Notes under the pieces: model-generated
What the model was told of the DNA's origin: nothing
The model's input: the letters and a program-made list of their open reading frames with translations, nothing else
Databases searched by the model: none
Assembly: GCA_021325525.1 (NCBI GenBank)
Contig: JAJPHB010000008.1
Span: forward strand, 1-54,197
Source of the DNA: Alphaproteobacteria bacterium
GTDB taxonomy: Bacteria; Pseudomonadota; Alphaproteobacteria; ATCC43930; CGMCC-115725
Direction: 5' to 3'
Length of the DNA: 54,197 bases
Part shown: piece after piece, positions 3,016-22,620 of the stretch
How positions within the stretch are numbered: position 1 is the first letter of the stretch
Layout of the letters: each line of letters starts with the position of its first letter
Translations under genes and position numbers: made by a program

Positions 3016-3932
<917 letters not shown>

Positions 3933-3936
<4 letters not shown>

Positions 3937-4730: not shown

Positions 4731-4759
4731 GGCGCGGGTCGGCCGATCGACGCCGCTCG

Positions 4760-5641
4760 CTACTGCGGCACCTCGCCCAGCACGGTGCAGCGGCGGATGA
4801 CGCGCGGCTCGCGCGCCGTGTCGTACGCCTCGGCCTTGTGCAGGAGGCAGCGATTGTCCCAGACCATGAAGTCGCGCGGCCGCCAGCGATGCGTATAGGT
4901 GCGGGCCAGGGCGACGATGCGGTCGTTGAGCGCGTCGATGAAGGCGCGGCCCTCGGCGTAGCCCATTCCGACGATGCTCTCGGCATGGTCGCCGAGAAAG
5001 ACGCATTTGCGTCCCGTCTCGGGATGCGTGCGGATGATGGGGTGGTCGACGGGCGGCACCGCCGCGCGCTGCGCCGCCGTCATCGGCTCCTCGCCGTGCC
5101 GGCGATTGCGCGAGAAGTCGAGATTGTGGATGGCGCGGAGGCCGGCGAGGCGCGCCTGCTCGGCGGGGCCGAGCGCCTCGTAAGCCGAATACATGTCGGC
5201 GAATCCCGTGCCGCCGCCCTGCGCGGGGATGCGCTCGGCATAGAGCATCGTCGCCTGCCCGGTGACCCGCCGCCACGAGCCGTCGGTGTGCCAGGCCATG
5301 GTGCCGCGGTCGGGATGCTTGCCGCTCGGCCGGCCCTCGGCGTCGAGGTTGGAGAGGGTGTAGAGCTCGGGATGCCGGCTCGCATGGTACTGGTTCATGA
5401 CATGGACCTGCACCTCGCCGAAGCGGCGGGCGAAGGCGACTTGCGCGGCCTCCGGCAGGTCCTGGTCGCGGAAGAGCAGCAATTGGTGCCGCAGGAACGC
5501 CGCATAGACGGCGGGGAAGAGCGCGTCGTCGACGGCAGCCACCTGGAGCTCGAGCACCTCGGCGCCGAGACCGCCCTCGAAGGGCCGCAGACGCAGCGCC
5601 GCCTCGGGCGCCGCGGCCGCCGGGTCGCGCAACTGCTGCAT
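4760..5641 (-). CDS. TauD/TfdA-family Fe(II)/2-oxoglutarate dioxygenase
   Basis: This 293-aa protein starts at ATG 5641 behind GAGGAGGG; the longer open frame to 5704 adds only an unlikely leader. It shows the facial triad of the family: His118 and Asp120 in MAWHTDGSW, and His268 in NRCLLHKA. Arginines 283-284 in VIRRCTVLGE are the usual 2-oxoglutarate carboxylate anchor. Family members hydroxylate taurine, phenoxyacetates, alkyl sulfates and similar compounds, which then lose the side group. The substrate here is not identifiable. It is transcribed divergently from the DUF427 gene. Confidence 0.93.
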   Translation of the reverse strand: MQQLRDPAAAAPEAALRLRPFEGGLGAEVLELQVAAVDDALFPAVYAAFLRHQLLLFRDQDLPEAAQVAFARRFGEVQVHVMNQYHASRHPELYTLSNLDAEGRPSGKHPDRGTMAWHTDGSWRRVTGQATMLYAERIPAQGGGTGFADMYSAYEALGPAEQARLAGLRAIHNLDFSRNRRHGEEPMTAAQRAAVPPVDHPIIRTHPETGRKCVFLGDHAESIVGMGYAEGRAFIDALNDRIVALARTYTHRWRPRDFMVWDNRCLLHKAEAYDTAREPRVIRRCTVLGEVPQ

Positions 5642-5719
5642 CGCGCCCTCCTCTTCGCTGCCTCCTCGCGAGCGGAGGCTAGGACAACCGTGGGACCCCG
5701 TCAAATCGCCGTCCCGCGG

Positions 5720-5748
5720 TTGACAGGCAGGCGCCTTCCGCCTTCATC
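5720..5748 (+). promoter_or_regulatory. Candidate promoter for the DUF427 gene
   Basis: A perfect -35 hexamer TTGACA (5720-5725) is followed after 17 bases by TTCATC (5743-5748), a weak -10 match, 22 bases ahead of the ATG at 5770. The -35 is convincing and the -10 is not, so this is only a candidate. Confidence 0.35.
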
Positions 5749-5769
5749 TTGGTGCGACGGAGGATCTCG

Positions 5770-6051
5770 ATGAAAGCCACTCTGAACGGCCGCGTCCTCG
5801 CCGAAAGCGCCGACACGATCGCCTGCGGCGGCTATGACTATTTCCCGAGCGCGGCGGTACGCCTCGACTGGCTCGAAAAGGCGGCGAAGACGGAGAGCGA
5901 CCGCGCCTGCCCGCACGGCGTCCAATTCTACGACATCGTGATCGACGGCGGGCGCCATCCGCGCGCCGCCTGGTCCTACGAGGCCCCGCGCCCCGAGATG
6001 CGCCATGTCGGCGGGCGCTTCGGCTTCTGGCAGGAGGTCGAGGTCGGCTGA
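5770..6051 (+). CDS. DUF427 domain protein
   Basis: This 93-aa protein starts at MKATLNGRVLAES (ATG 5770). It is a compact single-domain DUF427 member, with the conserved LAESADTI segment, PSAAVRLDWL, ACPHGVQFYDI, and a C-terminal AAWSYEAPRPE...GRFGFWQEVEV block. Family structures are small beta barrels of uncertain function. It stands alone between two opposite-strand genes. Confidence 0.88.
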   Translation: MKATLNGRVLAESADTIACGGYDYFPSAAVRLDWLEKAAKTESDRACPHGVQFYDIVIDGGRHPRAAWSYEAPRPEMRHVGGRFGFWQEVEVG

Positions 6052-6087
6052 GCGAGAGGCGGGGACGCCGCCTCTCGCCCCTTCCGG

Positions 6088-6984
6088 TCAGTCGAGCGGC
6101 GCCTTGCCGGGCGCCGTCGTCTTCGCCGGCTCCGATATGTCGCGATCGGGCGCCGCCGCCGGCCCCGGCTCCGCCGCCGGCGCCACATCCGCCGGCTTGT
6201 TGCCGGCCGCCGCGCGGTCGACGTCGACCTTGGTCTCGCGCAGCTTGTCGCGCACCGTCTCGACGCGCTCCGTCGCGTCCTTGCGGATGACGACATCCTC
6301 GCCGCGGCGCACGACCTTGCCGACGACCGGCTCTTCGCGGCGCTCGGTCACCTCGACTTCCTTCTCCTCGAAGGCGCCCTCGCCCGCGGGCCGATCGCTG
6401 CCGGGCGCGCGGCGCTCGATCGTCACCCGCTCGTCGCGCAGCGACACCTGCTCCTCGACGGGGCGCTCGACGACATAGCTGCGGATGCGGTAGCTCCGGC
6501 CGCCGGTGGTCTCGCGCTTGCCGACCTGCAGCTCCTCATGCGCGGTCGGGATCACGGTTTCCGTGCCGGGCGCAGCGGCGGCAGGGACGGAGCCGGCCGG
6601 GCCCGCCACGCCCTCTCGGCCGAATCCTGCCGTCGCCTCGTCGCCGATATCGATCGGGTCGAAGCGCTCGAGGAGGGCGACGATGCGCTCGAACTCGGCA
6701 TCGCCGCCGGCGGCGCGGACATAGAGCAGAGTCTTGCCGCCTTCATAGACATAGGAGTGATAGCGCTGCTTTTCCGCCTCCGGGACGTCGGTGCCGAAGA
6801 GCCAGTCGAAGAAGCCGCGCGGTTGCCGCGGCTCGGCGAGGGTGGTCGTTGCCGCCGCCGGCGCGCCGTCGCCCGCGCCGACGACGCGCACCTCCTCGGC
6901 CGCGAGGCCGGACCGCTGCAGCTCGTCCCGCGCCCGTTCGGCCTCAGCGCGTTGATCGAACAGCGCCACGATTGTTTGTTGCAT
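6088..6984 (-). CDS. YsnF/AvaK (DUF2382) domain stress-type protein
   Basis: This 298-aa protein has an N-terminal ferredoxin-like segment (MQQTIVALFDQRAEAERARDEL, residues 1-30) of the kind found in general-stress YflT-like domains. A C-terminal DUF2382 domain (about 150-250) shows IPTAHEELQVGKRE, IRSYVVERPVEEQV and VEVTERREEPVVGKV. The last 50 residues are rich in Ala, Pro and charged residues. The YflT plus DUF2382 architecture is common in stress-induced proteins of desiccation- or radiation-tolerant bacteria. There is no signal peptide or membrane span. The exact role is unknown. Confidence 0.88.
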   Translation of the reverse strand: MQQTIVALFDQRAEAERARDELQRSGLAAEEVRVVGAGDGAPAAATTTLAEPRQPRGFFDWLFGTDVPEAEKQRYHSYVYEGGKTLLYVRAAGGDAEFERIVALLERFDPIDIGDEATAGFGREGVAGPAGSVPAAAAPGTETVIPTAHEELQVGKRETTGGRSYRIRSYVVERPVEEQVSLRDERVTIERRAPGSDRPAGEGAFEEKEVEVTERREEPVVGKVVRRGEDVVIRKDATERVETVRDKLRETKVDVDRAAAGNKPADVAPAAEPGPAAAPDRDISEPAKTTAPGKAPLD

Positions 6985-7949: not shown

Positions 7950-8076
7950 CGCCGCCTCCCCGCTGGTTTTCGCGGGGAAGCCTTCCCTATGAGCGGACTC
8001 CGGTCAAGGCTGGCCCGCCGCTGGCGCAGGCGCGCAAGACCCGCAGGCCTCGGAGATGCGCGGCCGCTGGGCGCCG

Positions 8077-8448
8077 TCAGCTATTCGCGAGCGCGCGCGC
8101 GAGCTGGCTCACCGCCTCCTGGTGGCGCTCGTTGGTGATGTCGGCGAAATTGCGGGCAATCTCCAGCATCATGCGCTCGCGCTGCGTCACCTGGCGCGTG
8201 CCTTCCTCGCCGATCCCCTCGTAGAAATACCCGACGGGAACGCTAAGCACGCGGCCGATCTCGTAGAGGCGCCCGGCCGAGACGCGGTTGATGCCGCGCT
8301 CGTATTTATGCGCCTGCTGATATGTGACGCCGATGAGCTCGGCGAGCTGCTGCTGGGTGAGGCCCAGCATGATCCGCCGTTCCCGGATGCGGGCGCCGAC
8401 ATGATCGTCGATTGCCGCCGTCGACCGTCCTCGCTTTGGCTTCGCCAT
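8077..8448 (-). CDS. XRE-family helix-turn-helix regulator
   Basis: This 123-aa cytoplasmic protein has an HTH_3 domain at about residues 16-72 (ARIRERRIMLGLTQQQLAEL, then GVTYQQAHKYERGINRVSAG). The C-terminal part contains YFYEGIGEE and a helical tail (about 85-120). It resembles the short Cro/CI-like regulators common in Alphaproteobacteria. It is monocistronic, and its targets cannot be inferred from the context. Confidence 0.9.
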   Translation of the reverse strand: MAKPKRGRSTAAIDDHVGARIRERRIMLGLTQQQLAELIGVTYQQAHKYERGINRVSAGRLYEIGRVLSVPVGYFYEGIGEEGTRQVTQRERMMLEIARNFADITNERHQEAVSQLARALANS

Positions 8449-8702
8449 CGTTTCACCTGCCTTGACCGTTCATCGCGGCCCGCCCGGTGCCGCAATCAGA
8501 TGTTTCGATCGCATGGTTAACAGACGCAAAGCGCGGGAATTCCACCGGAGCACTTCAACGGTGAGCAGAATCACGCAGCACGGAAGGCGGGCCCCCGTCC
8601 GCACCGTTCCGAGCTGCCGTGGCGACGAAACACCGGCGGCGAGAAAACGTTCCCTCGCCGCTGGCCGCGCGCGAAGGGGCGCGGCCGGCGGCGCCCTTGC
8701 GC

Positions 8703-9341
8703 TCAGGCGCCCGCCTTCCGCGCCCGCCAATCGGCGTAGGCGATGCGCGGCATCGAGAAGGGATCGCTGAGGCGGATGTAGCCGCTGCCGGCAAGGCGCC
8801 CCACCAGCTTCATCTTGGCGGTCTCGATGCGGCAGCGCTCGTCGACGAGGCCGTCGCGCACATGGCAGTAGACGACCTCGCCCAAAATGATGGAGCGCTT
8901 GCCGCCGCCGCCGAGGCGCAGCTCCTGCAGCAGGCGGCATTCGAGGCTGACCGGCGACTGCGCGACGCGCGGCGGCGCCACCACGGCGGACGGCGCCGCG
9001 GCAAGCCCCGCCTCGGCCAGCTCGTCCGTTCCCTCGGGAAAGTCGATGGCGCAGATGTTCATCGCCTCGGCGATCGCCTCGTCGACGAGGTTGACGACGA
9101 ACTCCGCCGTCTCGCGCATGTTGCGCACCGTGTCCTTGGGGGCGCCGCTGTGGCGCTGCTCGACGCCGAGCGTCACCACCGCCGGGTCGTGGCTCAGCAC
9201 GTTGAAGAAGCTGAAGGGCGCGGCGTTGACGATCCCCTCCCGATCGACCGTCGTGACGAGCGCGATCGGCCGCGGCACGACGGCGCCGATCAGCAATTTA
9301 TAGCGGTCGGCCGGAGGCAGGGTGCGGAAGTCGAATTGCAT
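8703..9341 (-). CDS. Flavin reductase-like, FMN-binding split-barrel protein
   Basis: This 212-aa protein starts at MQFDFRTLPPADRYK (ATG 9341); the 59-residue upstream extension in the open frame looks non-coding. It matches the DIM6/NTAB family: LIGAVVPRPIALVTTVDREG (17-36), NAAPFSFFNVLSHDP (39-53), KDTVRNMRETAEFVVNLV (69-86) and a C-terminal GYIRLSDPFSMPRI. Such proteins bind FMN and act as flavin reductases for two-component monooxygenases or as stand-alone oxidoreductases. No cognate monooxygenase is adjacent. Confidence 0.9.
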   Translation of the reverse strand: MQFDFRTLPPADRYKLLIGAVVPRPIALVTTVDREGIVNAAPFSFFNVLSHDPAVVTLGVEQRHSGAPKDTVRNMRETAEFVVNLVDEAIAEAMNICAIDFPEGTDELAEAGLAAAPSAVVAPPRVAQSPVSLECRLLQELRLGGGGKRSIILGEVVYCHVRDGLVDERCRIETAKMKLVGRLAGSGYIRLSDPFSMPRIAYADWRARKAGA

Positions 9342-9611
9342 GGAGGGCTCGCATCGGTGGCGTCGCGGCCATGAACGCAAGGCCTCCCGCCATCCGTCAA
9401 GGGCTTTGCCGGGCCGCGGCCGCAACTCGTCGGAGACGGCATGGTTAACGGCCCGGCGCGGCGGCATTCCCCCCTCACCCGGGCAAAAACCGCCGATTTT
9501 CGCCGGATTCGACCGCAAATCACCGCGTTAACTTTAATTAAGACTATTGCCTCCCGACGGGTCGTGTCATCATCCGGACGGGGGGAGTGCGGCTAGGCAA
9601 GGATCATTTTT

Positions 9612-10574
9612 ATGTCTCTCCTCGATGCATCGGCGAGCGGCGTCTATGTGATCTCGGCGACGCCCTTCACCGACAGCGGGGCGCTGGACTGGCCCTCGAC
9701 CGACCGCCTCGTCGACCATTACTGCGCGAGCGGCGTCGCTGGCATCACCGTGCTCGGCGTCATGGGCGAGGCGCCGAAACTGTCGCGCGAGGAATCGGAG
9801 GCCTTCGTCGCGCGCGTCCTCAAGCGGGCGACGGTGCCGGTCGTCGTCGGGGTGAGCCAGCCGGGCTTGCGCCTTCTCGGGGACTTCGCCCGCCGCGTCA
9901 TGGATCTCGGCGCCGCCGGCGTCATGGTGGCGGCGGCCGCGGGGCTGCGCACCGACGAGCAGGCCTACGCCTATTTCGCCGCCGTCGCGGCCGAGCTCGG
10001 CGACGCCGTGCCGGTCGTGCTGCAGGACTACCCGCCGCTCAACGGCGTCTTCCTCTCCGCCACCCTCATCGACCGCCTCTTCAGCGAATTCCCGAGCTTC
10101 GTGATGCTGAAGCACGAAGACGTGCCGGGGCTGCGCAAGCTGTCGCAGCTCCGCGCCGCCGAGGCGCGCGGCGCGCGGCGCCGCATCTCCATCCTCGTCG
10201 GCACCGGCGCTCTTTACCTGCCGCAGGAGCTGGCCCGCGGCGCCGACGGCGCGATGAGCGGCTTCGCCTTCCCCGAGATGCTGGTCGAGGTCTGCCGCCG
10301 CTTCCGCGCCGGCGACCGCGACGGCGCCGAGGATCTCTTCGATGCCTATCTGCCGGCGATCCGCCACGAGCAGCAGCCGGGCATCGGCCTCGCCCTCCGC
10401 AAGGAGACGCTGCGCCGGCGCGGCCTCATCGCGAGCGCGCGGACGCGGGCGCCGGGCCCCAGCCTCGATGCCGAGGACCATGCCGAGCTGACGCGCATGC
10501 TCGACCGCCTGGAGCGGGCACGGCGGCGCTTGGACGAGCCGGCGCCGGCACAGTTGCGGCGCGTCTCCGGATAG
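9612..10574 (+). CDS. DHDPS/NAL-family class I aldolase
   Basis: This 320-aa TIM-barrel protein has GVMGEAPKLSREE (49-61, in place of the usual GTTGE), Tyr140 in LQDYPP and the Schiff-base Lys167 in FVMLKHED. These are the key residues of the dihydrodipicolinate synthase / N-acetylneuraminate lyase family, so pyruvate-dependent aldol chemistry is likely. The changed GTTGE motif and a longer, Arg-rich C-terminus (after residue 280) argue against lysine-biosynthetic DapA. It stands alone, so the partner aldehyde is unknown. Confidence 0.9.
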   Translation: MSLLDASASGVYVISATPFTDSGALDWPSTDRLVDHYCASGVAGITVLGVMGEAPKLSREESEAFVARVLKRATVPVVVGVSQPGLRLLGDFARRVMDLGAAGVMVAAAAGLRTDEQAYAYFAAVAAELGDAVPVVLQDYPPLNGVFLSATLIDRLFSEFPSFVMLKHEDVPGLRKLSQLRAAEARGARRRISILVGTGALYLPQELARGADGAMSGFAFPEMLVEVCRRFRAGDRDGAEDLFDAYLPAIRHEQQPGIGLALRKETLRRRGLIASARTRAPGPSLDAEDHAELTRMLDRLERARRRLDEPAPAQLRRVSG

Positions 10575-10732: not shown

Positions 10733-12082
10733 ATGACGTTCCGCATATTGTCTCTCGATGGGGGTGGCACCTGGTCCCTCATCCAAATCCTGACGCTGAT
10801 CGATCTTTATCGGAGCGGCGGCGCCCTGTTGTCGGGCCACCACGTGCTGCGCGACTTCGACCTCGTCGCCGCCAATTCCGGCGGCAGCCTCGTCCTCGGC
10901 GGCTTGCTCAAGGATCTGCCGCTCGGCGACGTCGCGAAATACTTCGACGATCCGGCGACGCGCCGCGCCGTCTTCGCCCCGGGCGCCGGCGCCCGCGGCG
11001 CCAAGGCGCGCCTGCGCCGCGCCGCCGCCGGCGTCGGGCCGCGCCACGCGGCGGCGCGCAAGCTCGCCGCCCTGCGCCAGCTTCTCAACAGCGAAGCGGG
11101 CGAGCCGGGGCTCGGCGACATCACGCTCGACGCCCTGACGGCGCGGGCGCGCCTGCCGACGCAGATCATGATCACCGCCTTCGACTACGATCGCCGCAGC
11201 GAGGTCATCTTCCGCTCCAACCTGCAGAGCCGGGCCGCCGGCTTCGGCACGCCGGCGATCGCGACACTCGCTGAGGCGATCCATGCCTCGACGACGGCGC
11301 CCGTCGATTATTTCGACGGGCCGGCGACGGTCTCGCGCGGCCGGCGGTGCTGGGACGGCGCCCTTGCCGGCGACCACAACCCGGTGCTGGCGGCGATCGC
11401 CGAGGCGCTCGCCAACGGCGTCCCGCGCGAGGCCATCGAGGTGCTGAGCATCGGCAGCGGCAGCGTCGTCCTGCCGCCGGCGAGCGGCAGCGAGGATGCC
11501 GCCGCGGCGAAGCTGGTGCAGGTCAGGCAGGCGCACGACCCGGCCGGCGATCTGCGCACCCTCGCCGAGGTGCTGATCGACGACCCGCCCGACCGCGCCA
11601 GCTTCCTCGCGCATCTCGCCTTGGGGCAGGCCGTCCCCGAGGAGCCGGGGCGCGCCGTCGGCGACGGCACCCTCGTCCGCCTCAACCCGCTCGTCCAGCC
11701 CATTCGCGCCGCCGGCGGCTGGGTCCGTCCCGCCGGCCTCATCGAGGCCGAGGACGCGAGCGATGAGTTCCTGCGCCTGCGCAACGCCGCCGCCGACACC
11801 GTCGCCGACGGCGATATCGCGCTCATCCGCAAGTTCTGCCTGCTCTGGCACAATGACGCGGTGCCGAACCAGCCGATCCGCGCTAATGCCGACACGCTCG
11901 AATGCGAAATCGGCCAGCGCTGGTACAGCGAGGCGAAGGGCCGCTGGGCGGCGCTCGTCGAGGCGCGGCCGCGGGCGGCGGCGGCACCGAGCCCGGCGGC
12001 GCCCGCCGGCCAAGCGCCGCCGCCCGCCAGCGGGCCGCGCAGCGCGCCGCCGCCGCGCCTCACCAGCCCCAAGCTGAATTGA
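10733..12082 (+). CDS. Patatin-like phospholipase-family protein
   Basis: This 449-aa protein has the patatin anion-binding loop near the N-terminus (LDGGGTWS, residues 8-15), a nucleophile-elbow position AANSGGS (46-52, Ser49) and a DGA catalytic dyad motif at 208-210 (CWDGALAGDHNP). Patatins are Ser-Asp lipid acyl hydrolases. The usual GxSxG is replaced by A-N-S-G-G, so activity is probable but not certain. The C-terminal roughly 45 residues are a Pro/Ala-rich disordered tail. No signal peptide is visible. The 158-bp leader upstream is AT-richer than its surroundings and may hold the promoter. Confidence 0.88.
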   Translation: MTFRILSLDGGGTWSLIQILTLIDLYRSGGALLSGHHVLRDFDLVAANSGGSLVLGGLLKDLPLGDVAKYFDDPATRRAVFAPGAGARGAKARLRRAAAGVGPRHAAARKLAALRQLLNSEAGEPGLGDITLDALTARARLPTQIMITAFDYDRRSEVIFRSNLQSRAAGFGTPAIATLAEAIHASTTAPVDYFDGPATVSRGRRCWDGALAGDHNPVLAAIAEALANGVPREAIEVLSIGSGSVVLPPASGSEDAAAAKLVQVRQAHDPAGDLRTLAEVLIDDPPDRASFLAHLALGQAVPEEPGRAVGDGTLVRLNPLVQPIRAAGGWVRPAGLIEAEDASDEFLRLRNAAADTVADGDIALIRKFCLLWHNDAVPNQPIRANADTLECEIGQRWYSEAKGRWAALVEARPRAAAAPSPAAPAGQAPPPASGPRSAPPPRLTSPKLN

Positions 12083-13372: not shown

Positions 13373-13804
13373 ATGCGCATCGCCGACGTCCTCCACCACA
13401 AGGGCCGTCTCGTCCATAAGGCGCGGACGACCGACGCCGTCGCCGCCGCGGTGCAGAAGCTGTCGGACAACAATATCGGCGCGCTCCTCGTCTATGACCG
13501 CTGGGGCAAATACGCCGGCATCTTCAGCGAGCGCCACCTCATGCACGGCATCGAGCGCTTCGGCGCGGCGGCGCTCGAACTGCCCGTCGGGGAGCTCATG
13601 GTCCCCGACCGCATCACCTGCCATCCGGGCGACCTCGTCGGCAAGGTGATGGGCCTCATGACCGTGCACCGCATCCGCCACATGCCGGTCGAGGAAGCGG
13701 GCAAGATCGTCGGCATCGTCAGCATCGGCGATCTCGTGCGCGCCGTCATCGAGGAGAAGGAGCTCGAAGTCGAGGTGCTGCGCGACATGGCGCGCGCGCA
13801 TTAG
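13373..13804 (+). CDS. CBS-domain pair protein
   Basis: This 143-aa protein consists of two CBS motifs in tandem. The first is at about residues 8-60 (TTDAVAAAVQKLSDNNIGALLVYDRWGKYAGIFSERHLM, split here by position only). The second is at about 75-130 (MVPDRITCHPGDLVGKVMGL, then HRIRHMPVEEAGKIVGIVSIGDLV). A Bateman pair normally binds adenosyl nucleotides and reports energy state. No attached effector domain is present, as in many small stress-associated CBS proteins. Confidence 0.92.
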   Translation: MRIADVLHHKGRLVHKARTTDAVAAAVQKLSDNNIGALLVYDRWGKYAGIFSERHLMHGIERFGAAALELPVGELMVPDRITCHPGDLVGKVMGLMTVHRIRHMPVEEAGKIVGIVSIGDLVRAVIEEKELEVEVLRDMARAH

Positions 13805-14135: not shown

Positions 14136-15176
14136 ATGGCACAGCACCACGACATCGTCGCCATCGGCACCTCCGCCGGCGGCTTCCATACTCTCCAGAG
14201 CTTGCTGCGCGGCCTGCCCGCCGAGCTGCCGGCGGCGGTCTTCATCGTCATGCATGTGGGCAGCACGAGCCACCTCGCCCAGCTCCTCGACCAGGCCGGG
14301 CCGCTGCGCGTCAAGGAGGCGGAATGCGGCGAGCCGATCGTGCCGGGGCGCGTCTATGTCGCCGGACCCGGGCGCCACCTGCTGCTTCATGACGGGCACA
14401 TCCTGCTGCGGCGCGGCCCGCGCGAGAACATGGCGCGGCCCGCCATCGACCCGCTCTTCCGCTCGGCGGCGTGCAGCTTCGGCGCGCGCGTCGTCGGCGT
14501 CGTGCTGTCGGGCGCGCTCAATGACGGCACGGCGGGGCTCATGGCGGTGAAGCGCTGCGGCGGCGTCGCGGTCGTCCAGGACCCCGCGGACGCGGCGGTG
14601 CCGAGCATGCCGCAGAGCGCCCTGCGCCACGTCGAGGTCGACCATTGCGTGCCGATCGCCGCGATGCCCGATCTTCTTGCCCGCCTCGCCGCCGAGCCGG
14701 CGGGGAAGACGCCGGAGATACCGCTCGAGATCAGGATCGAGGCGGCGATCGCCGCGCAGGAGCTTTCCGACATGAGCCAGAACGACCGGCTGGGCAAGCC
14801 GTCCCGCTTCGGCTGCCCCGAATGCCGCGGCACCTTGTGGGAGATTGCCGATGGCGGTACGCTTCGCTATCGTTGCCACGTCGGCCACGCCTACAGCGGC
14901 GAGGCGCTCCTCGCGGCGCAAGCCAGCGACGTCCACAAGCTGCTGCGGACGCTGCTGCGCTCGCATCAGGAGCGGGCGGAGCTGGCACGACGGGTGGCGG
15001 CGGCCGAGCCGCCCGACTCCAATCTCGCGGCGCTGATGTCGGCGCGGGCGCGCGAATACGACCGGGACGCGGAGCTGATGCAGCAGCTGCTCCGCGAGAG
15101 GAACAGCGTGCCGAGGGGAGGCGCTCGCGCGGCGGACATAGCGGATGACGGCCAGCAGGAAGAGGCGATCGGCTGA
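14136..15176 (+). CDS. Stand-alone CheB-like methylesterase with C-terminal zinc-ribbon-like motif
   Basis: This 346-aa protein starts at MAQHHDIVAIGTSAGG. The CheB C-terminal (methylesterase) domain spans about residues 5-185, with the catalytic Ser in GTSAGG, the His in VMHVGSTSH and the Asp in LSGALNDGTAG. There is no receiver domain, unlike chemotaxis CheB. Near residue 230 a CPECRGTLWEI...RYRCHVGHAYS segment carries a CxxC...CxxH pattern that could bind zinc. A helical tail follows. It overlaps the next gene by 32 bases, so it is translationally coupled to the CheB-CheR kinase and probably works with it. It may demethylate or deamidate glutamates on an unknown sensor. Confidence 0.88.
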   Translation: MAQHHDIVAIGTSAGGFHTLQSLLRGLPAELPAAVFIVMHVGSTSHLAQLLDQAGPLRVKEAECGEPIVPGRVYVAGPGRHLLLHDGHILLRRGPRENMARPAIDPLFRSAACSFGARVVGVVLSGALNDGTAGLMAVKRCGGVAVVQDPADAAVPSMPQSALRHVEVDHCVPIAAMPDLLARLAAEPAGKTPEIPLEIRIEAAIAAQELSDMSQNDRLGKPSRFGCPECRGTLWEIADGGTLRYRCHVGHAYSGEALLAAQASDVHKLLRTLLRSHQERAELARRVAAAEPPDSNLAALMSARAREYDRDAELMQQLLRERNSVPRGGARAADIADDGQQEEAIG

Positions 15177-18100
15177 GCGGCCGCCGCTGGACAGCCGCTC
15201 GGCTCTCGTCCCGGTCGTCGGCATCGGCGGCTCGGCCGGCGCGGTCCCGGCGCTGAAGGCCGTCTTCTCCAGCGCTCCCGCCGATTCCGGCCTCTCTTTC
15301 GTCGTCGTCCAGCATCTCGACCCCGACCACCGGACCGCGCTGCCGGAGCTTCTGGGCCACGCAACGGCAATGCCGGCGCGGCTGATCGAGGACGGCGGCG
15401 CGGCCCAGCCGAACCACATCCATATCCTGCCGCCGAACGCGACCCTGACAATCAAGGACGGGCGCCTCCGCCTCGAGCCCCCCGCCTTGCCGCGCGGCCA
15501 GCGCACGCCCATCGACGATTTCCTCACCTCGCTCGCGGCCGATCGCGGCGAGAACGCCGCCTGCGTCATCCTGTCGGGGACGGGAAGCGACGGCACGCTG
15601 GGCCTCAGGGCGATCAAGGAGAGCGGCGGGCTCACCCTGGCGCAGGCGGGCGCCGAATATGACGGCATGATGCGCAGCGCCGTCAGCACCGGCCTCGTCG
15701 ACTTCGTGCTTCCAGCCGAGGAGATGGCGGCGAAGCTCGTCGATTATTTCAGCCCGCTGCACGCGGAGGCGCGGCGGAAGAAGCGCGACGGGCTGAGCCA
15801 GGACACGGCCGCCTATCTCGGCCCGCTCTGCGCCGTGCTGCGCGCCCGCACCGGGCACGATTTCAGCGGCTACAAGTACAAGACGATCATCCGCCGCGTA
15901 CTGCGGCGCATGCAGGTGCTGAAGATCGACGAGATGCCGGCCTATCTCGAACGCCTGCGCGCCGATGTCCGCGAGGTCGACCTCCTGTTCCAGGATCTCC
16001 TCATCGGCGTCACCAACTTCTTCCGCGACCCGGCGGTCTTCGCCGCCCTCGAACACGACATCGTGCCGCGGCTCTTCGAGGGGCGCGGCGCTGACGATGC
16101 GATCCGCGTGTGGGTCCCGGGCTGCGCCACCGGCGAGGAAGCCTACTCGATCGCCATCCTGCTGCGCGAGCGCATGCCGAGATCGCATGCGGGACCGAAG
16201 CTGCAAATCTTCGCCACCGACATCGACGAGCAGGCGCTGGAGATCGCCCGCGCCGGGCGCTATCCGGCGGCGATCGCCAAGGACGTGCCCGGCCCGCTTC
16301 TCGAGCGCTATTTCCTGCGCGAGGACGGGACATACCGGGTGGCGAGCGAGCTGCGCGAAGTCTGCCTCTTCTCGGCGCATAATCTGCTGCGCGACGCGCC
16401 CTTCTCGAAGCTCGACCTCATCTCCTGCCGCAACCTCTTGATCTATCTCGGCGCCGATCTGCAGAGCCGGCTGGTTCCGCTGTTCCTTTACGCGCTGCGC
16501 GATTCCGGCTACCTGCTGCTCGGCACCTCGGAGAACGTCGCCCGCCATTCGCGCCTCTTCGCCACCGCCGACAAGGCGCATCACATCTTCCAGCGGCGGC
16601 CGCAGGCCGACCGCCGCCTGCCCGAGTTCCCGCTCACCTCGCCCAATCCGGCGCGCCGCAAGCCGGCGCCGGCCGCCCGCCCGGCCGCCTCCACGAGCGA
16701 TCTTCAGAGCCTGGCCGACCGGCAGCTTCTGGAGCGCTACGCCCCGGCTTGCGTCGTCATCAACGAAGAGGGCGAGCTGCTGCATGTGTCGGGGCGGACG
16801 GGCAAATATCTGGAGCTGCCGCCGGGCCTGCCCAGCAACAACATCTTTGGCCTCGCCCGGCGCGGCCTGCGCCTCGAGCTGCGCGCCGCCTTGCACCGCG
16901 CGGCGAGGACCGGAGAATCCGTCACTCAGCGGAACCTCGCGGTCGGCACCAATGGCGGCCGCCAGACGCTCGATATTATCGTACAGCCGCTGCGCCGCGG
17001 CGAGCCGGCCGAAACTCTCTACATGGTCGTCTTCCGCGATGTGGGCGAGGCGAAATCCGCGTCCGTGGCGCGGGCGGGCGAGCCTTCGGAGGATGCCGAG
17101 GACTCCAATCTCCGCGCCCTAGAGACGGAGCTGGCGGCGACCAAGGAGCGCCTGCAAACCGCGACCGAGGAGCTCGAATCCTCGAACGAGGAGCTGAAAT
17201 CCGGCAATGAGGAGCTGTCCTCGATCAACGAGGAGCTGCAATCCGCGAACGAGGAGCTGGAGACCTCGAAGGAAGAGCTGCAGTCTATCAATGAGGAGCT
17301 GCAGACCGTCAACGCCGAGCTGAAGATGCGGGTCGAGGAGCTGAGCCGCGCCAACAGCGACATCGCGAACCTCCTCGCAAGCACGCAGATCGCCGCCGTC
17401 TTCCTCGATCACCGGCTCGCCATCAAGAGCTTCACCCCGGCGGCGAAGGAAGTGTTCCGCCTGGTCGAGAGCGATGTCGGCCGGCCGATCTCGCATGTGC
17501 GCTCGCGCCTGCGCCTCGATACGGTCGAGGGGGAGGCCGAGCGCGTCCTGCGGACGCTCGGCACGATCGAGAAGCAGGTCGAGAGCGCCGATACCGACGC
17601 CCGCTTCATCATGCGCATGATGCCCTATCGCACGGTCGACAACGTCATCGCCGGCGTCGTCATCACCTTCATCGACGTGACGCGCATCACCGCCGCCGAG
17701 GCGCGCATCAACACGCTGACGCGCGACCTCCGCGACCGGCTGGAGACGCTGCTCGACCTGCTCCCGGTCGGCATCTTCATCACCGAGGACAGTGCCGCCC
17801 GCCGCATCCGCGTCAACCGCTACGGCGCCCGTCTCCTCGGCGAGGAGGACGAGCGCGAGGGACCGCGCGCGGTGTCGGCGCTGGGCCGCCTCATCGTCGA
17901 CGGCCGTGAGCTGCCGGTCGAGGAGCGGCCCTTGCAGCGCGCCGCGCGCACCGGCAAGACCCCGGCCGCGGTCGAAGGCCGCTTGCTCCGCGCCGATGGC
18001 GGCGCCGTCGAGGTGATGATCCTGGCGACGCCGCTCTTCGACGGGGGCGGCCAGCCGCGCGGCGCCATCGCCGCCATCATCGACATCTCCGAGCGCAAGC

Positions 18101-18750
18101 GCGCCGAGGCGGCGCGAGAGCGGCTGATGCACGAGCTGCAGCATCGGGTGAAGAACATCCTCGCCACCGTCGCCTCGCTGGCGAGCCGCATGCTGAAGGA
18201 CCACCCGTCCATCGAGGATTTTTCCGCGGCCTTCCTCGCCAGGATCATGGCCATGGGCCGGATGCACGAGCTGCTCTCGACCCATGAATGGGAGGGCGTC
18301 GATATCCGCGCGCTGACCGCGACGGCGCTGGCGCCCTATGTGAATGGCGAGGAGAACAACACGATGCTGAGCGGGCCGGCGGTGAGGCTGGGGCCGAACG
18401 CGGCGGAGACCTTCGGGATGGCGCTGCATGAGCTGGCCACCAACGCCGCCAAATACGGCGCGCTGTCGGTGCCGGACGGCCGGGTCGAGGTGGTCTGGCA
18501 GGTCCAGAATTCGGGAGACGGGAAACGGCTGGCGCTCACCTGGACCGAGCGCGGCGGCCCGCCCATCGGGCACGGGCGAAGGGAGGGATTCGGCACCGGC
18601 TTCGTTCGCCGCAGCGTCGAATACGAGCTCGAAGGCCGGGTCAGCCTCAGCTTCGAGCCCAGCGGCTTCCGCAGCACGATCGAGTTCCCGTTGCGCGAGG
18701 GCGGGGCGCCGCCCGCGGGAGGATCGGGTGACGGCGGCGATGCCCGATGA
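15145..18750 (+). CDS. CheB-CheR-PAS-HWE hybrid sensor histidine kinase
   Basis: This 1201-aa cytoplasmic protein reads in order: CheB methylesterase (about 20-215; GGSAGAVPAL, VVQHLDPDHR and the GSDGT Asp); CheR methyltransferase (about 225-495; SAM motif PGCATGEEAYSIA near 320, then SCRNLLIYL); a linker; a coiled coil of 7-residue NEEL repeats (about 665-745); PAS-like domains (about 750-860 and 870-985); and an HWE/HisKA_2 kinase (985-1195). The kinase phospho-acceptor is His1000 in QHRVKN, the N-box is ELATNAAKYGALS (about 1095), and Trp1133-x-Glu is in LTWTERGG. No membrane span is seen. A single-domain receiver gene follows with 11 bases of overlap. The stimulus is unknown. Confidence 0.95.
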   Translation: MTASRKRRSAERPPLDSRSALVPVVGIGGSAGAVPALKAVFSSAPADSGLSFVVVQHLDPDHRTALPELLGHATAMPARLIEDGGAAQPNHIHILPPNATLTIKDGRLRLEPPALPRGQRTPIDDFLTSLAADRGENAACVILSGTGSDGTLGLRAIKESGGLTLAQAGAEYDGMMRSAVSTGLVDFVLPAEEMAAKLVDYFSPLHAEARRKKRDGLSQDTAAYLGPLCAVLRARTGHDFSGYKYKTIIRRVLRRMQVLKIDEMPAYLERLRADVREVDLLFQDLLIGVTNFFRDPAVFAALEHDIVPRLFEGRGADDAIRVWVPGCATGEEAYSIAILLRERMPRSHAGPKLQIFATDIDEQALEIARAGRYPAAIAKDVPGPLLERYFLREDGTYRVASELREVCLFSAHNLLRDAPFSKLDLISCRNLLIYLGADLQSRLVPLFLYALRDSGYLLLGTSENVARHSRLFATADKAHHIFQRRPQADRRLPEFPLTSPNPARRKPAPAARPAASTSDLQSLADRQLLERYAPACVVINEEGELLHVSGRTGKYLELPPGLPSNNIFGLARRGLRLELRAALHRAARTGESVTQRNLAVGTNGGRQTLDIIVQPLRRGEPAETLYMVVFRDVGEAKSASVARAGEPSEDAEDSNLRALETELAATKERLQTATEELESSNEELKSGNEELSSINEELQSANEELETSKEELQSINEELQTVNAELKMRVEELSRANSDIANLLASTQIAAVFLDHRLAIKSFTPAAKEVFRLVESDVGRPISHVRSRLRLDTVEGEAERVLRTLGTIEKQVESADTDARFIMRMMPYRTVDNVIAGVVITFIDVTRITAAEARINTLTRDLRDRLETLLDLLPVGIFITEDSAARRIRVNRYGARLLGEEDEREGPRAVSALGRLIVDGRELPVEERPLQRAARTGKTPAAVEGRLLRADGGAVEVMILATPLFDGGGQPRGAIAAIIDISERKRAEAARERLMHELQHRVKNILATVASLASRMLKDHPSIEDFSAAFLARIMAMGRMHELLSTHEWEGVDIRALTATALAPYVNGEENNTMLSGPAVRLGPNAAETFGMALHELATNAAKYGALSVPDGRVEVVWQVQNSGDGKRLALTWTERGGPPIGHGRREGFGTGFVRRSVEYELEGRVSLSFEPSGFRSTIEFPLREGGAPPAGGSGDGGDAR
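17167..17322 (+). repeat. 21-bp periodic coding repeat (NEEL heptads)
   Basis: GAGGAGCTG or a close variant recurs every 21 bases at 17167, 17188, 17209, 17230, 17251, 17272, 17293 and 17314 inside the hybrid kinase gene. It encodes eight successive seven-residue units of the form N/S-E-E-L-x-S-x, a strict coiled-coil heptad between the CheR and PAS parts. Such CheB-CheR kinases commonly have this linker. Confidence 0.9.
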
Positions 18751-19129
18751 GACGGGCGTGACCGCTGTCAGCGGCCTGCGCATCCTCGTCGTCGAGGACA
18801 CCCTGCTCGTCGCCGAGGTGATCTGCGCGCAGCTGGAAGGCGCGGGCTCGATCGTCATCGGCCCGGCGGCGCGCTTGCCGCAGGCGCTCGCCCTGGCGCG
18901 CGCGGAGGAATTGGACGGCGCCGTGCTGGACGTGAACCTCAACGGCACCATGAGCTTTCCGCTGGCGGCGCTGCTGGAGGAGCGGCAGGTGCCCTTCATC
19001 TTCCTCACCGGCTACGATAACGGCAGCGTCGTGCCGCCCGAATACCGGCACGTCCCGCGGATCGCCAAGCCCTGGCATTACGCCACGTTTTTGGCGACGG
19101 TGGCCGCGTGCTTCCGCCGGGCGGGGTGA
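18740..19129 (+). CDS. Single-domain response regulator receiver
   Basis: This 129-aa CheY-like receiver has the acidic pocket Glu19-Asp20 (ILVVEDTLL), phospho-acceptor Asp64 (AVLDVNLNG), Thr90 (FLTGYD) and Lys110 (RIAKPW). There is no output domain. The FLTGYD and PAILxKP-like ends resemble the receivers paired with HWE kinases. The ATG at 18740 (or GTG 18728) lies inside the end of the kinase gene, so it is the likely direct phosphorylation partner. It may act as a phosphate sink or bind another protein. Confidence 0.9.
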   Translation: MPDETGVTAVSGLRILVVEDTLLVAEVICAQLEGAGSIVIGPAARLPQALALARAEELDGAVLDVNLNGTMSFPLAALLEERQVPFIFLTGYDNGSVVPPEYRHVPRIAKPWHYATFLATVAACFRRAG

Positions 19130-19268: not shown

Positions 19269-19970
19269 TCAGACGCCCAGATACCGCTGCCGCAGCTCGC
19301 CGGCGGAGGCCAGGGCAGCCGAATTGCCCTGCCAGACGACGCGGCCCTTCTCGATGATGATGTGACGGTCGGCGAGGCGGCTCAGCGCCGCGATATTCTT
19401 GTCGATGACGAGGATGGCCTGCCCGCCCGCCTTCAGCGCTTGGAGGCAGCGCCAGATCTCGGCGCGGACGAGGGGCGCCAAGCCCTCGGTCGCCTCGTCG
19501 AGAATGAGAAGGCGCGGATTGGTCATGAGGGCGCGGCCGATCGCCAGCATCTGCTGCTCGCCGCCGGAGAGCTGGCCGCCGTAATGCCCGGCGCGCGCGG
19601 CGAGGCTCGGAAAGAGGGCGAGGACGCGCTCGTAGTGCCAGGGCGCCGCGCCGCCGCGCCCACTGGCCGCCGTCGCGACGAGGTTCTCGCGCACGGTGAG
19701 GTTGGCGAAGATGCGCCGCCCCTCGGGCACGAGGCCGAGGCCGCGCCGCGCGATGCGGTGAGCGGGAAGGCCGTGAATCGCCTCGCCCGCGAAGCGGATG
19801 CTGCCGGCGCGGATCGGCGTCAGCCCGAGGATCGACTTCACGACCGTCGTCTTGCCCATGCCGTTGCGGCCGAGGAGGCTCACGACCTCGCCGGCGCCGA
19901 CGGCGAGGTCGATGCCGAAGAGCACCTGGCTCCGCCCGTAGGCGGTCTCGAGCCCGCGCACTTCGAGCAT
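19269..19970 (-). CDS. livF: Branched-chain-type ABC transporter ATP-binding protein LivF
   Basis: This 233-aa ATPase starts at ATG 19970 (MLEVRGLETAYGRSQVLFG); the longer open frame upstream is a shadow. Motifs are Walker A GRNGMGKTT, signature QLSGGEQQMLAIGRAL, Walker B LLILDEATEGLAP and the VPEGRRIFANLTV segment typical of LivF. In LivF the H-loop normally reads EQN; here it is VIDKNIAAL, a modest departure. It is the last gene of livHMGF, overlapping livG by ATGA. Confidence 0.92.
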   Translation of the reverse strand: MLEVRGLETAYGRSQVLFGIDLAVGAGEVVSLLGRNGMGKTTVVKSILGLTPIRAGSIRFAGEAIHGLPAHRIARRGLGLVPEGRRIFANLTVRENLVATAASGRGGAAPWHYERVLALFPSLAARAGHYGGQLSGGEQQMLAIGRALMTNPRLLILDEATEGLAPLVRAEIWRCLQALKAGGQAILVIDKNIAALSRLADRHIIIEKGRVVWQGNSAALASAGELRQRYLGV

Positions 19971-20722
19971 CAGCCCACCTCCTCGCCGAGATAGGCGGCG
20001 CGCACCGCCGGGTCGGCGCGGATCGCGTCGGGCGCGCCGGTCGCGATGCAGCGCCCGTAGACGAGGACGCTGACGCGGTCGGCGAGGGCGAAGACGGCGT
20101 CCATGTCGTGCTCGACGAGGAGAATCGCGCAGCGCCGCTTGAGGCGGCCGAGCAGCGCCACCATGCGCGCCGATTCCTCCGGCCCCATGCCGGCCATCGG
20201 CTCGTCGAGGAGGAGAAGGCGCGGCTCCGTCGCCAGCGCCATCGCGAGTTCGAGCTGCCGCTGCTCGCCATGCGCGAGGATGCCGGCGGGCACGGCGGCG
20301 CGGCCGGCGAGCCCGACCGCATCGAGAAATGCGCGGGCCGGCGCCCGCAGGCTCTCCTCGCGCCGCGCCGGACGCCAGAAGCGGAAGCTGTGGCCGCTCC
20401 GCGCCTGCACGGCGAGCGCGACATTGTCGAGCGCGGTGAAATCGGGGCAAATCGAGGTGATCTGGAAGGAGCGGGCGAGGCCGCGGCGGGCGCGCTCGGC
20501 CATGCCGAGCCGCGTCACATCGGCGCCGGCGAAGCGGATGCGGCCGGAGGTCGGCATGAGCTCGCCCGCGAGCTGCGCCACGAGCGTCGTCTTGCCGGCG
20601 CCGTTGGGGCCGATGACGGCGTGGAGCTCGCCCTCTTCGACGCTGAGCGAGAGGCCGTCCGTCGCGGCGATGCCGCCGAAGCGCTTGACGAGGCCGTCCG
20701 CCGCGAGCAGCGCCTCAGCCAC
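19970..20722 (-). CDS. livG: Branched-chain-type ABC transporter ATP-binding protein LivG
   Basis: This 250-aa ATPase (GTG start at 20722) has Walker A GPNGAGKTT, the LARSFQITSICPDFTALDNV segment, signature-position LAHGEQRQLELAMAL, Walker B LLLLDEPMAGMGP and the switch His in LVEHDMDAVF. These match LivG of HAAT-type importers. It overlaps livM upstream by 8 bases (GTGGCTGA) and livF downstream by 4 bases, so the whole set is translationally coupled. Confidence 0.92.
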   Translation of the reverse strand: MAEALLAADGLVKRFGGIAATDGLSLSVEEGELHAVIGPNGAGKTTLVAQLAGELMPTSGRIRFAGADVTRLGMAERARRGLARSFQITSICPDFTALDNVALAVQARSGHSFRFWRPARREESLRAPARAFLDAVGLAGRAAVPAGILAHGEQRQLELAMALATEPRLLLLDEPMAGMGPEESARMVALLGRLKRRCAILLVEHDMDAVFALADRVSVLVYGRCIATGAPDAIRADPAVRAAYLGEEVG

Positions 20723-21755
20723 CTGCCGCCTCCGGCCGGGCGACGAGCCCCCAGAGGCCGCGCCGCGCGAAAAGGACGAGGAGAATGAGGAGCGGCCCGA
20801 AGATGATCGCCCAATGCTCGGTCCAGCCGCCCAGCACCAGCTCCAGCAGCAGATATGCGGCGGCGCCGAGGATCGGACCCAGGAGCGTCCCCATGCCGCC
20901 CAGCACCACCATGACGATGAGCTCGCCCGAGCGCTGCCAGCTCATATCGGCCGGGCTCACATAATCCTGGCTGTTGGCAAGGAGCGCGCCGGCGAGCCCG
21001 GCGAGCGCGCCCGCGATGACGAAGCAGCAGAGGCGGTAGCGGAAGGTCGGAAAGCCGAGCGCCCGCATCCGCCGCTCGTTCTGGCGGCAGCCGCGGATGA
21101 CCATGCCGAAGCGGGAGCGGACGAGGCGGTGGCAGAAGCCGAGGGCGGCCATGAGAAGGGCGAGGACGAGATAGTAGAAGACCCTCTTGTCGCCGAGATC
21201 GAACGCGCCGAAGCGCGAGCGGGCCGGCATCTGCAAGCCGTCCTCGCCGCCGTATTTCTGCAGCGCGATGAAGAAGAAATAGAGCATCTGCGCGAAAGCG
21301 AGGGTGATCATGATGAATTGGACGCCGCTGCTGCGCAGCGAGACGAGGCCGATGACGAGCGCCGCCAGCGCCGCCGCCGCCATGGCGAGCGGCCAGACGA
21401 TGAAGGCGTTATCGGAGCCCGGAAGGACGACGGGCCAGAGGAGCAGCGGCTCGGCATTGGCGGCGTGGACGGCGAGGATTCCCGTGACATAGGCGCCGAT
21501 GCCGAGGAACGCCGCATGGCCGAAGCTGACCATCCCGCCATAGCCGAGAATGAGGTCGAGGCTGATGGCGGCGAGCGCCATGACGAGGACGCGGGTCGCG
21601 AAGCGGAGATAGAAGGGCTGGTCCAGGAGCTGCGCCAGGATCGGCACGGCGAGGAGCGCGAGGGCGGCGAGGAGGAGGGCGAGCCGCGCCGGCGCGAGGC
21701 GCGGGATGACGGAACGCCGCGCCGTCTGGGCGGCGCCCGCCGGCAGCTCAGCCAT
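20715..21755 (-). CDS. livM: Branched-chain-type ABC transporter permease LivM
   Basis: This 346-aa polytopic membrane protein has the LivM signatures AAISLDLILGYGGMVSFGHAAF (shown here as a region near residues 45-65) and LVRSRFGMVIRGCRQNERRMRALG (about 210-235), followed by LANSQDYVSPADMSW and a VLGGMGTLLGPILGAA loop near the C-terminus. About ten membrane spans are expected. Its ATG overlaps the livH stop by 8 bases. With livH it forms the channel through the inner membrane. Confidence 0.93.
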   Translation of the reverse strand: MAELPAGAAQTARRSVIPRLAPARLALLLAALALLAVPILAQLLDQPFYLRFATRVLVMALAAISLDLILGYGGMVSFGHAAFLGIGAYVTGILAVHAANAEPLLLWPVVLPGSDNAFIVWPLAMAAAALAALVIGLVSLRSSGVQFIMITLAFAQMLYFFFIALQKYGGEDGLQMPARSRFGAFDLGDKRVFYYLVLALLMAALGFCHRLVRSRFGMVIRGCRQNERRMRALGFPTFRYRLCCFVIAGALAGLAGALLANSQDYVSPADMSWQRSGELIVMVVLGGMGTLLGPILGAAAYLLLELVLGGWTEHWAIIFGPLLILLVLFARRGLWGLVARPEAAGG

Positions 21756-22620
21756 GGGCGGGGAAGAGGCCGCGCGGGCGCCAGAAGAGAATCGCCGCCA
21801 TCAGGACATAGATGCCGATCTGCGCCAGCGCCGGCGGCAGCAGGACGCGGCCGAAGGTGTCGATGATGCCGACGAGGAGGGCGGCGATGAAGGCGCCGCG
21901 CACCGAGCCGATGCCGCCGATGACGATGACGACGAGGGTCAGGATGAGGACCTCGTCGCCCATCCCGACCTGCACCGCAAGCAGCGGCCCCGCCATGACG
22001 CCGGCAAAGCCGGCGAGCGCCGCGCCGAGACCGAAGACGAGGGTGAAGAGGCGCGCGATGTCGACGCCGAGCGCCCCCACCATCGCCCGGTCGGCGGCGC
22101 CGGCGCGGATCAGCATGCCGAGCCGCGTCTTGGCGATGAGGAGATAGAGGAGAAGCGCAATGGCGATGCCGGCGAGGATGATGGCGAGGCGGAAGGCGGG
22201 ATAGGGAAAGCCGGGCGGCAGCTCGACCGTGCCGGCGAGCGAAGCGGGCAGCGCCATGCGCAGCGGCACCGGCCCCCAGACGATGCGGACCGCCTCGTTG
22301 AGGAAGAGGATGAGGCCGAAGGTGCAGAGCACCTGGTCGAGATGGTCGCGCTCGTAGAGCCGGCGCAACGCCACGATCTCGATGGCGATCCCGACGAGCG
22401 CCGAGAGCGGGACGGCGAGGAGGAGCGCCAGAAGGAAGGAGCCTGTCCATTGCTGGAGGGCCGCGGCGAAATAGGCGCCCAGCATGTAAAGCGAGCCATG
22501 CGCGAGATTGATGAGGTTCATGATGCCGAAGACGAGGGTGAGCCCCGCCGCCATCAGGAACAGCATGGTGCCGAGCTGAATGCCGTTGAGCGCCTGCTCG
22601 AGGAGGAGGGAGAGGGTCAC
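21748..22620 (-). CDS. livH: Branched-chain-type ABC transporter permease LivH
   Basis: This 290-aa permease (GTG start at 22620) begins LSLLLEQALNGIQLGTMLFL, then MNLINLAHGSLYMLGAY, the conserved LivH helix. It also has MLIRAGAADRAMVGALG and VVIGGIGSVRGAFIAALLVG toward the C-terminus. It is the first gene of a complete permease/ATPase set, but no periplasmic binding protein gene is attached. The AsmA gene upstream is on the same strand, but a 231-base gap with REP-like hairpins separates them. Confidence 0.93.
   Translation of the reverse strand: MTLSLLLEQALNGIQLGTMLFLMAAGLTLVFGIMNLINLAHGSLYMLGAYFAAALQQWTGSFLLALLLAVPLSALVGIAIEIVALRRLYERDHLDQVLCTFGLILFLNEAVRIVWGPVPLRMALPASLAGTVELPPGFPYPAFRLAIILAGIAIALLLYLLIAKTRLGMLIRAGAADRAMVGALGVDIARLFTLVFGLGAALAGFAGVMAGPLLAVQVGMGDEVLILTLVVIVIGGIGSVRGAFIAALLVGIIDTFGRVLLPPALAQIGIYVLMAAILFWRPRGLFPAHG

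Follow-up and report, generated by a model that had tools for sequence, protein, structure and literature searches.

The question raised by this locus is what a methyltransferase and a methylesterase fused to a sensor kinase act on when no chemoreceptor is encoded beside them. The analysed stretch (the window, 54,197 nucleotides) is the entire contig JAJPHB010000008.1 (C150) of the 4.8 Mb alphaproteobacterial assembly GCA_021325525.1 and carries a cassette of three overlapping genes on the forward strand. The first gene (14136–15176) encodes P0001, a stand-alone CheB methylesterase of 346 residues; the second (15145–18750) encodes P0002, a CheB-CheR-PAS-coil-PAS_10-PAS_4-HWE histidine kinase fusion of 1201 residues, as read from Pfam and its relatives; the third (18740–19129) encodes P0003, a single-domain response regulator (REC) of 129 residues. 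The overlaps are 32 nucleotides between the CheB and fusion genes and 11 nucleotides between the fusion and REC genes. A first-pass annotation had described such a cassette with two CheB domains, one CheR, an HWE kinase and a receiver, which the list of open reading frames (ORFs) and Pfam bore out. It had also suggested a methylation circuit with a non-chemotaxis target and noted no methyl-accepting protein. Absent from it was the long Glu-rich helix of P0002 (residues ~655–745), the most informative feature of the locus. It is considered rather probable, from sequence comparison, that P0002 is a self-modifying sensor kinase in which the fused CheR and CheB use the Glu-Glu helix as their methyl acceptor. 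The earlier statement on the acceptor was thus probably wrong in spirit, as the likely acceptor lies inside the kinase, whereas the suggested non-chemotaxis circuit gained partial support.

The fused CheB esterase domain of P0002 (residues 25–198, 15217–15738, Pfam CheB 5e-47) carries S30, H57 and D149, and the fused CheR methyltransferase (residues 228–476, 15826–16572, Pfam CheR 8e-50, with CheR_N) carries Arg294 in an FFR motif, Glu331, Asp359 and Asn430. The Arg of FFR and the Asn of CRN are presumably active-site residues. Relatives of P0002 were collected and 107 of the 128 examined ORFs carried both CheB and CheR. Among these 107 fusions, the CheB Ser, His and Asp were kept in 105, 106 and 103, the CheR Arg, Asp and Asn in all 107 and the Glu in 102. 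With both domains in one chain and the catalytic residues present, P0002 is a CheB-CheR hybrid, and the Ser/His/Asp motifs are complete in P0001 as well; judged by such motifs, the esterase and methyltransferase residues whose loss would have told against the first-pass annotation are intact. A Pro/Arg-rich, presumably flexible linker (residues ~483–515) follows CheR and leads to a conserved segment (residues ~516–640, 16690–17064) without a Pfam match. The segment was called PAS-like from its mixed alpha/beta secondary structure in a poor AlphaFold model (P0002 residues 1–860, built from nine sequences, predicted template modelling score, pTM, 0.30), in which the predicted local distance difference test (pLDDT) was 64–84 for residues 531–630. 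In the same model, residues 655–745 (17107–17379) formed one continuous helix, with a pLDDT of 69–83 for residues 661–730 and lower values at either end. A PAS_10 domain (residues 741–846, 17365–17682, Pfam 1e-26), a PAS_4 domain (residues 870–986, 17752–18102, Pfam 1.7e-11) and the kinase (residues 997–1185, 18133–18699, Pfam HWE_HK 2.3e-22) complete the chain. The HWE class is defined by its acceptor His, the N-box His and a WxE motif. The HWE_HK match scored 80 bits against a cut-off of 22.8, and H1000 (in HRVKN), HELATN at 1095 and WTE at 1133 were all found, so the C-terminus of P0002 is a predicted HWE histidine kinase. The chemoreceptor signalling domain MCPsignal (PF00015) was absent among the 11 Pfam families of P0002.

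The proposed methyl-accepting tract of the helix (17167–17298) contains seven Glu-Glu pairs with an exact spacing of seven residues (675/676, 682/683, 689/690, 696/697, 703/704, 710/711 and 717/718), invariant in 9/9 close relatives. In an alignment of 47 fusions, the window's included, residues 701–725 formed the most conserved block of 25 residues, with a mean identity of 78% to the window protein, the blocks from CheB and CheR reaching at most 64%. Four of the 47 (L050, L054, L076 and L085) had gaps in the tract, each 7 or 14 residues long, and the heptad register was kept; register-keeping gaps of whole heptads are likewise a feature of chemoreceptors. A recent tandem duplication was also considered as the origin of the pairs and is unlikely, because each heptad has distinctive residues that the relatives share.

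The register of the helix places Leu at position d, the Glu pair at b and c and Ser or Thr at f, with Asn or Lys at most core a positions. In a two-stranded coiled coil, positions b, c and f are exposed. Among 63 coils less than 85% identical, departures from the consensus in heptads −1 to 2 amounted to 11 of 504 at b and c, 81 of 504 at a and d, and 244 of 756 at e, f and g. In heptads 3–4 of the same helix the order was reversed, with 134 of 252 residues departing at b and c and 72 of 252 at a and d. Position f was occupied by Ala, Ser, Thr or Gly in 63, 62, 63 and 63 of the 63 coils inside the tract, and by such a small residue in 26/63 and 17/62 beyond it. As read from these alignments, the conserved face is not the one that a plain coiled coil would be expected to keep. 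A chemoreceptor methylation site is described in the available part of PMC6829392 (Alexander and Zhulin consensus) as two adjacent Glx residues, of which the one at c is typically methylated, with small residues on the flanks. The 63 non-redundant coils fit a relaxed version of this register (pair at b and c, small f, every seven residues), which suggests that the Glu-Glu helix works like a methyl-accepting helix in this respect.

The pairs were closely associated with CheR. At least three in-phase pairs were found in 106 of the 107 CheB-CheR fusions, independently of the output: pairs were kept in 36/36 proteins with an HWE kinase and in 70/71 without it, seven of the 107 ORFs ending at a locus edge, where the output part may be cut. 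A search with the coil only (102 residues, E ≤ 1e-6) in 385 Alphaproteobacteria genomes, with at most 12 candidates scored per genome, so that weaker coils elsewhere may be missed, gave 49 matches in 38 genomes. In total, 44 of these lay in a CheR-bearing ORF, two beside a CheR ORF (broken genes) and three had no CheR nearby. In the last three (L118, L119 and L120), the pairs were decayed, with 0, 0 and 2 left in phase.

The distribution of the pairs was followed on a tree of the PAS_10 domain, which comprised 109 rows and few columns, so that only supported (starred) branches were trusted. Proteins lacking the enzymes did not group together but were interspersed with complete fusions. Both CheB and CheR together with the pairs were present in 92 of the 102 scored rows, and nine rows lacked CheB, CheR or both, each with fewer than three in-phase pairs. 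All five independent pairs of rows on supported branches (5/5) agreed with a joint loss, in nearly all of 200 pairings. There were 21 rows without both enzymes, and the 12 not counted comprised six broken or cut genes (L065, L077, L113, L123, L125 and L184), one coil with N in its sequence (L014), three distant PAS proteins without pairs (L148, L150 and L151) and two with too low a PAS_10 score (L121 and L122); the PAS_10 loci L143–L147 and L149 yielded no tree row. The six broken or cut genes kept 5–7 in-phase pairs and had CheB or CheR in a neighbouring ORF or were cut by the contig end. At L184, a CheB-CheR ORF (4219–6075) and a coil-PAS_10 ORF (8014–9651) lie separately, about 2 kb apart, with the pairs intact.

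Three of the natural losses deserve a closer description, L126 and L182 being the clearest. L126 has no CheB domain and zero Glu-Glu pairs, and in its CheR the FFR Arg and CRN Asn are replaced by Asp and His; it is sister to L071 with full branch support and keeps PAS_10 and the matched kinase domains. L182 has no CheR and a degenerate CheB with unrecognisable Ser and Asp motifs. Compared with that of its relative L155, its Glu-Glu tract is shorter by exactly 35 residues (five heptads), PAS_10 and HWE being kept. L118, which is the same gene as L103, has kept CheB and lost CheR; four of about seven pairs are broken, and the d positions are mostly still hydrophobic.

These losses bear on the view that the helix is an ordinary signalling helix kept for mechanical reasons, with an external substrate for CheB and CheR. 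Helices between PAS domains and kinases do commonly transmit signals, and the S-helix class has conserved residues of its own, as stated in PMC1592074, a paper in which CheR and CheB do not occur. A mechanical role would not lead one to expect b and c to be more conserved than the core in the Glu-Glu tract and not in the next two heptads, nor the pairs to vanish with CheR while PAS_10 and the kinase domains stay, as in L126 and L182, which makes this explanation quite unlikely.

Several observations weigh against the helix being a methyl acceptor. The strict site consensus used, [ASTG][ASTG]xx[EQ][EQ]xx[ASTG][ASTG], was matched by only one of the seven pairs in P0002 and by a site in the coil of only 13 of the 107 fusions, since most heptads have Gln, Glu or Lys at position e, and it therefore failed as a proof of methylation sites. 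No usable contact between CheR and the coil was present in the AlphaFold model, which at its pTM is too poor to judge reach. The coils were aligned on the motif that itself holds the Glu pairs (heptads 0–2), which somewhat favours the pairs; heptad −1, outside this motif, had Glu at b and at c in 61/63 coils each. L185 has both enzymes and only two in-phase pairs and is the sole such row of the tree. The two-sided sign test gave p = 0.0625, the minimum possible with five pairs (0.0625–0.125 over the pairings), and the cut-off of three pairs was picked after the data had been seen. The HWE domain of L118/L103 has also lost its start, so the gene may be decaying generally, and L119 is a broken gene. 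Four of the nine enzyme-less proteins (L139–L142) have no recognisable Glu-Glu coil and are thus uninformative on the pairs alone. Finally, L121 and L122 have CheR and no CheB domain and kept four and eight in-phase pairs; with CheR present, they are consistent with pairs that depend on CheR and not on a CheB domain of the same protein.

L122 is flanked by two stand-alone CheBs. In this locus (375–1439 and 3777–6107, both on the minus strand), a coil-HWE kinase without a CheB or CheR match, with Glu-Glu heptads EELQVSLEELQVTTEELETAN, was observed near the CheR-coil protein and the two CheBs. Such an arrangement is possibly a trans version of the same device.

The scarcity of strict sites would suit a different use of the helix, namely binding to the active sites of CheR and CheB as an unmethylated pseudo-substrate, or latch, that controls the kinase. 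Conservation of the pairs and their joint loss with CheR are accounted for by a latch. The catalytic residues, conserved in almost all of the 107 fusions, would be unexpected in that case, and seven equivalent in-register sites exceed what a latch needs. A latch is therefore regarded as unlikely. The 13 strict sites also compare with a mean of 3.4 and a maximum of 9 in shuffled coils, and the chemoreceptors of the same genome (5 of 10 inspected) contain sites that fit the strict pattern, one example being ATATEELASS, which resembles the coil's TATEELESS.

The remaining candidates for the substrate are ordinary methyl-accepting chemotaxis proteins (MCPs), on which the fused CheR and CheB could act in trans, the coil being a plain dimerisation linker. 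The genome of the window does have ten MCP matches and three CheW matches, the latter on contig 172 together with a second CheR, and the lack of MCP and CheW asserted in the first-pass annotation stood only for the window contig, which holds none of these matches (CheA was outside the search). The absence of chemoreceptors is thus local to the locus and not a property of the cell. In a survey of 80 of the 107 fusion-bearing genomes, an MCP match was found in 68, which also fits an action in trans. However, no MCP match was found in 12 of the 80, all of which carry a CheR-bearing fusion, and 11 of these 12 had no CheW match either, CheA again lying outside the search. This part of the survey favours the non-chemotaxis circuit proposed earlier.

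In a thirteenth genome (G489), the MCP match was only below threshold. Among the 13 genomes without an above-cut-off MCP, CheR was present in 13/13 and CheW absent in 12/13, G403 being the one that has it. The fusion was the only CheR match in seven of them (G066, G186, G320, G684, G734, G568 and G403), and the coils of the 12 sampled (all except G568) had 5–7 in-phase pairs. One of the 13, G066, is a single contig of 5.4 Mb with 100% completeness and, the window aside, scored highest in the class survey (63% identity). Neither an MCP nor a CheW match was found in it, and the fusion, which is followed by a REC gene and preceded by an ORF that matches the CheB tail, was its only CheR match. With such genomes at hand, with a second CheR on the CheW contig of the window's own genome and with the near-invariant exposed Glu pairs left unexplained by a plain linker, action in trans on chemoreceptors is considered very improbable. 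As a main role of the fusion it was rejected, because 12 of the 80 fusion-bearing genomes had no MCP match.

If the helix is indeed the acceptor, the PAS domains would sense a signal, and the acceptor would be the seven-pair ladder on the helix that links the PAS-like segment to PAS_10. The fused CheR, held on its Pro/Arg-rich linker, would methyl-esterify ladder Glu residues in cis or across the dimer, and the fused CheB together with the stand-alone CheB would reverse this methylation. The charge state of the ladder could set the packing of the helix and so bias HWE autophosphorylation and phosphotransfer to the adjacent REC; Asn or Lys at core a should keep the coil from being so stable that changes in charge have no effect. 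The outcome would be adaptation, or a memory, that needs no chemoreceptor, CheW or CheA. Neither CheB of the cassette has a REC domain. Feedback onto the enzymes could instead arise from substrate accessibility that varies with the signalling state or from the Cys-motif tail of the stand-alone CheB.

P0001 (Pfam CheB_methylest 4.1e-53; motifs GTSAGG, VMHV and GALNDG) lacks a receiver domain, and its reading frame is open from 13950. The same stand-alone CheB is a neighbour of some related fusions. Its C-terminal putative metal-binding motif, read from the sequence (residues 227–251, 14814–14888, +), is C227-x2-C230...C247-x3-H251; the first-pass annotation had correctly located a Cys motif in this extra CheB and had given its spacing as CxxC...CxxH, which should read CxxC...CxxxH. 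In the loci examined, 11 of 14 REC-less CheB ORFs had the motif, against none of 8 REC-CheBs. It is thus a common feature of that CheB subtype, and a metal or redox input peculiar to this locus was rejected. Among the REC-less CheBs without the motif, L024 has a frame break with the motif-bearing tail in the next ORF, and L077 represents the CheB portion of a fusion gene that is broken.

The acceptor Asp64 of P0003 (Pfam Response_reg 9.2e-8) sits in the motif AVLDV, and this residue and His1000 of the kinase are where the first-pass annotation had placed them. The neighbourhood was surveyed for 81 fusions with enough flank, counted with simple thresholds. A same-strand REC followed 19 of 27 HWE fusions and none of 54 others, and a stand-alone CheB lay nearby in 8 of the 27 and 2 of the 54. 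The REC profile came from the window REC only, which means that these counts may overlook distant RECs, as they did the split CheB of L048.

Other outputs were found as well. The chain of L069 (5898–10325) runs CheB-CheR-coil-PAS_10-HisKA-HATPase-REC-REC-LuxR, whereas that of L195 stops after PAS_10. L069 thereby combines everything from the sensor to a LuxR-type DNA-binding domain inside a single protein. Across the relatives, the chances are somewhat better than even that these proteins form a widespread, chemoreceptor-independent class of sensors with a Glu-Glu ladder, a methyltransferase and a methylesterase in one chain and with varied outputs, comprising an HWE kinase with REC, HisKA with receivers and a LuxR-type domain, or no kinase domain. 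An output through the general stress response regulator PhyR (NF006623) was also considered. PhyR was above cut-off in four of five genomes, and in the window's genome only a sub-threshold match to its REC part was found, which leaves this output unsupported there.

The cassette is present in S. fredii NXT3, with the CheB on the opposite strand. Among plasmid records, 253 matched at E ≤ 1e-60, in 82 of these the match spanned 80% or more of the query, and the annotations among the matches listed were 'chemotaxis protein CheB', 'PAS domain S-box protein', 'PAS domain-containing protein' or none. The homologue on pSymB of S. meliloti 1021 (537748–541185), presumably SMb20515, has kept its pairs. 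A proteomics table of PMC11302038 gives SMb20515 the label 'blue-light-activated histidine kinase'.

In the window, the cassette is directly preceded by a gene for a small CBS-domain protein (13373–13804). It was dismissed as a cassette member, as it had no relative in the ORFs of related loci at E 1e-8. Genes on the minus strand at 19269–22620 converge on the cassette and, from their translations only, resemble a branched-chain amino acid ATP-binding cassette (ABC) transporter with two ATPases and two permeases. An ORF at 10733–12082 (start MTFRILSLDGGG) may encode a patatin-like lipase, judging from a motif.

Should the proposed mechanism hold, adaptation by glutamate methylation would not be bound to chemoreceptors and would constitute a portable memory cassette for two-component kinases, present in many Pseudomonadota, including genomes without an MCP and CheW match, and a substrate would be named for CheB-CheR hybrids. 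Such hybrids are already in print, and the Glu-Glu helix was not found described. RC1_3878 of Rhodospirillum centenum (PMC2890560) and the cheBR fusions in Geobacter (PMC8396549, table footnote) likewise have CheB and CheR in one protein; in the parts of these papers available, their existence is noted and no substrate, coil or self-methylation is discussed. Among the parts of the open-licence literature consulted, no paper describing a methyl-accepting coil in CheB-CheR fusions was recognised, which is not proof of absence.

Other systems share single traits with the fusion. According to the available parts of the respective papers, the CheR-TPR fusions of alternative-function chemosensory pathways (PMC3447774) are CheRs with extra domains outside flagellar chemotaxis, and FrzF (PMC2535941) is also a CheR with extra domains, but the receptor it targets, FrzCD, is a protein of its own; among the fusion-bearing genomes, by contrast, there are some without any MCP match. 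The PhoP case (PMC8546571, likewise seen in part) resembles the proposed one in that CheR modifies a signalling protein other than a chemoreceptor and differs in that Arg112 was methylated, in vitro. P0002 shares with HWE kinases (PF07536) the C-terminal kinase with its HRVKN, HELATN and WxE motifs, but on the input side it has CheB-CheR-coil. Among solved structures, the nearest chains (6ph4 and 5epv) are both named 'blue-light-activated histidine kinase' and are assumed here to be HWE kinases; 13 solved sequences matched in all, each covering only single domains or the kinase end of the fusion. A further parallel is with the MCPs (PF00015), whose methylation sites are spaced seven residues apart. 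Akin to these receptors, the helix of P0002 has Glu pairs at b and c, small residues at f and CheR and CheB as partners, and it differs from them in having no MCPsignal match, Asn or Lys at core a, a strict consensus that is mostly unmatched and a kinase in the same chain.

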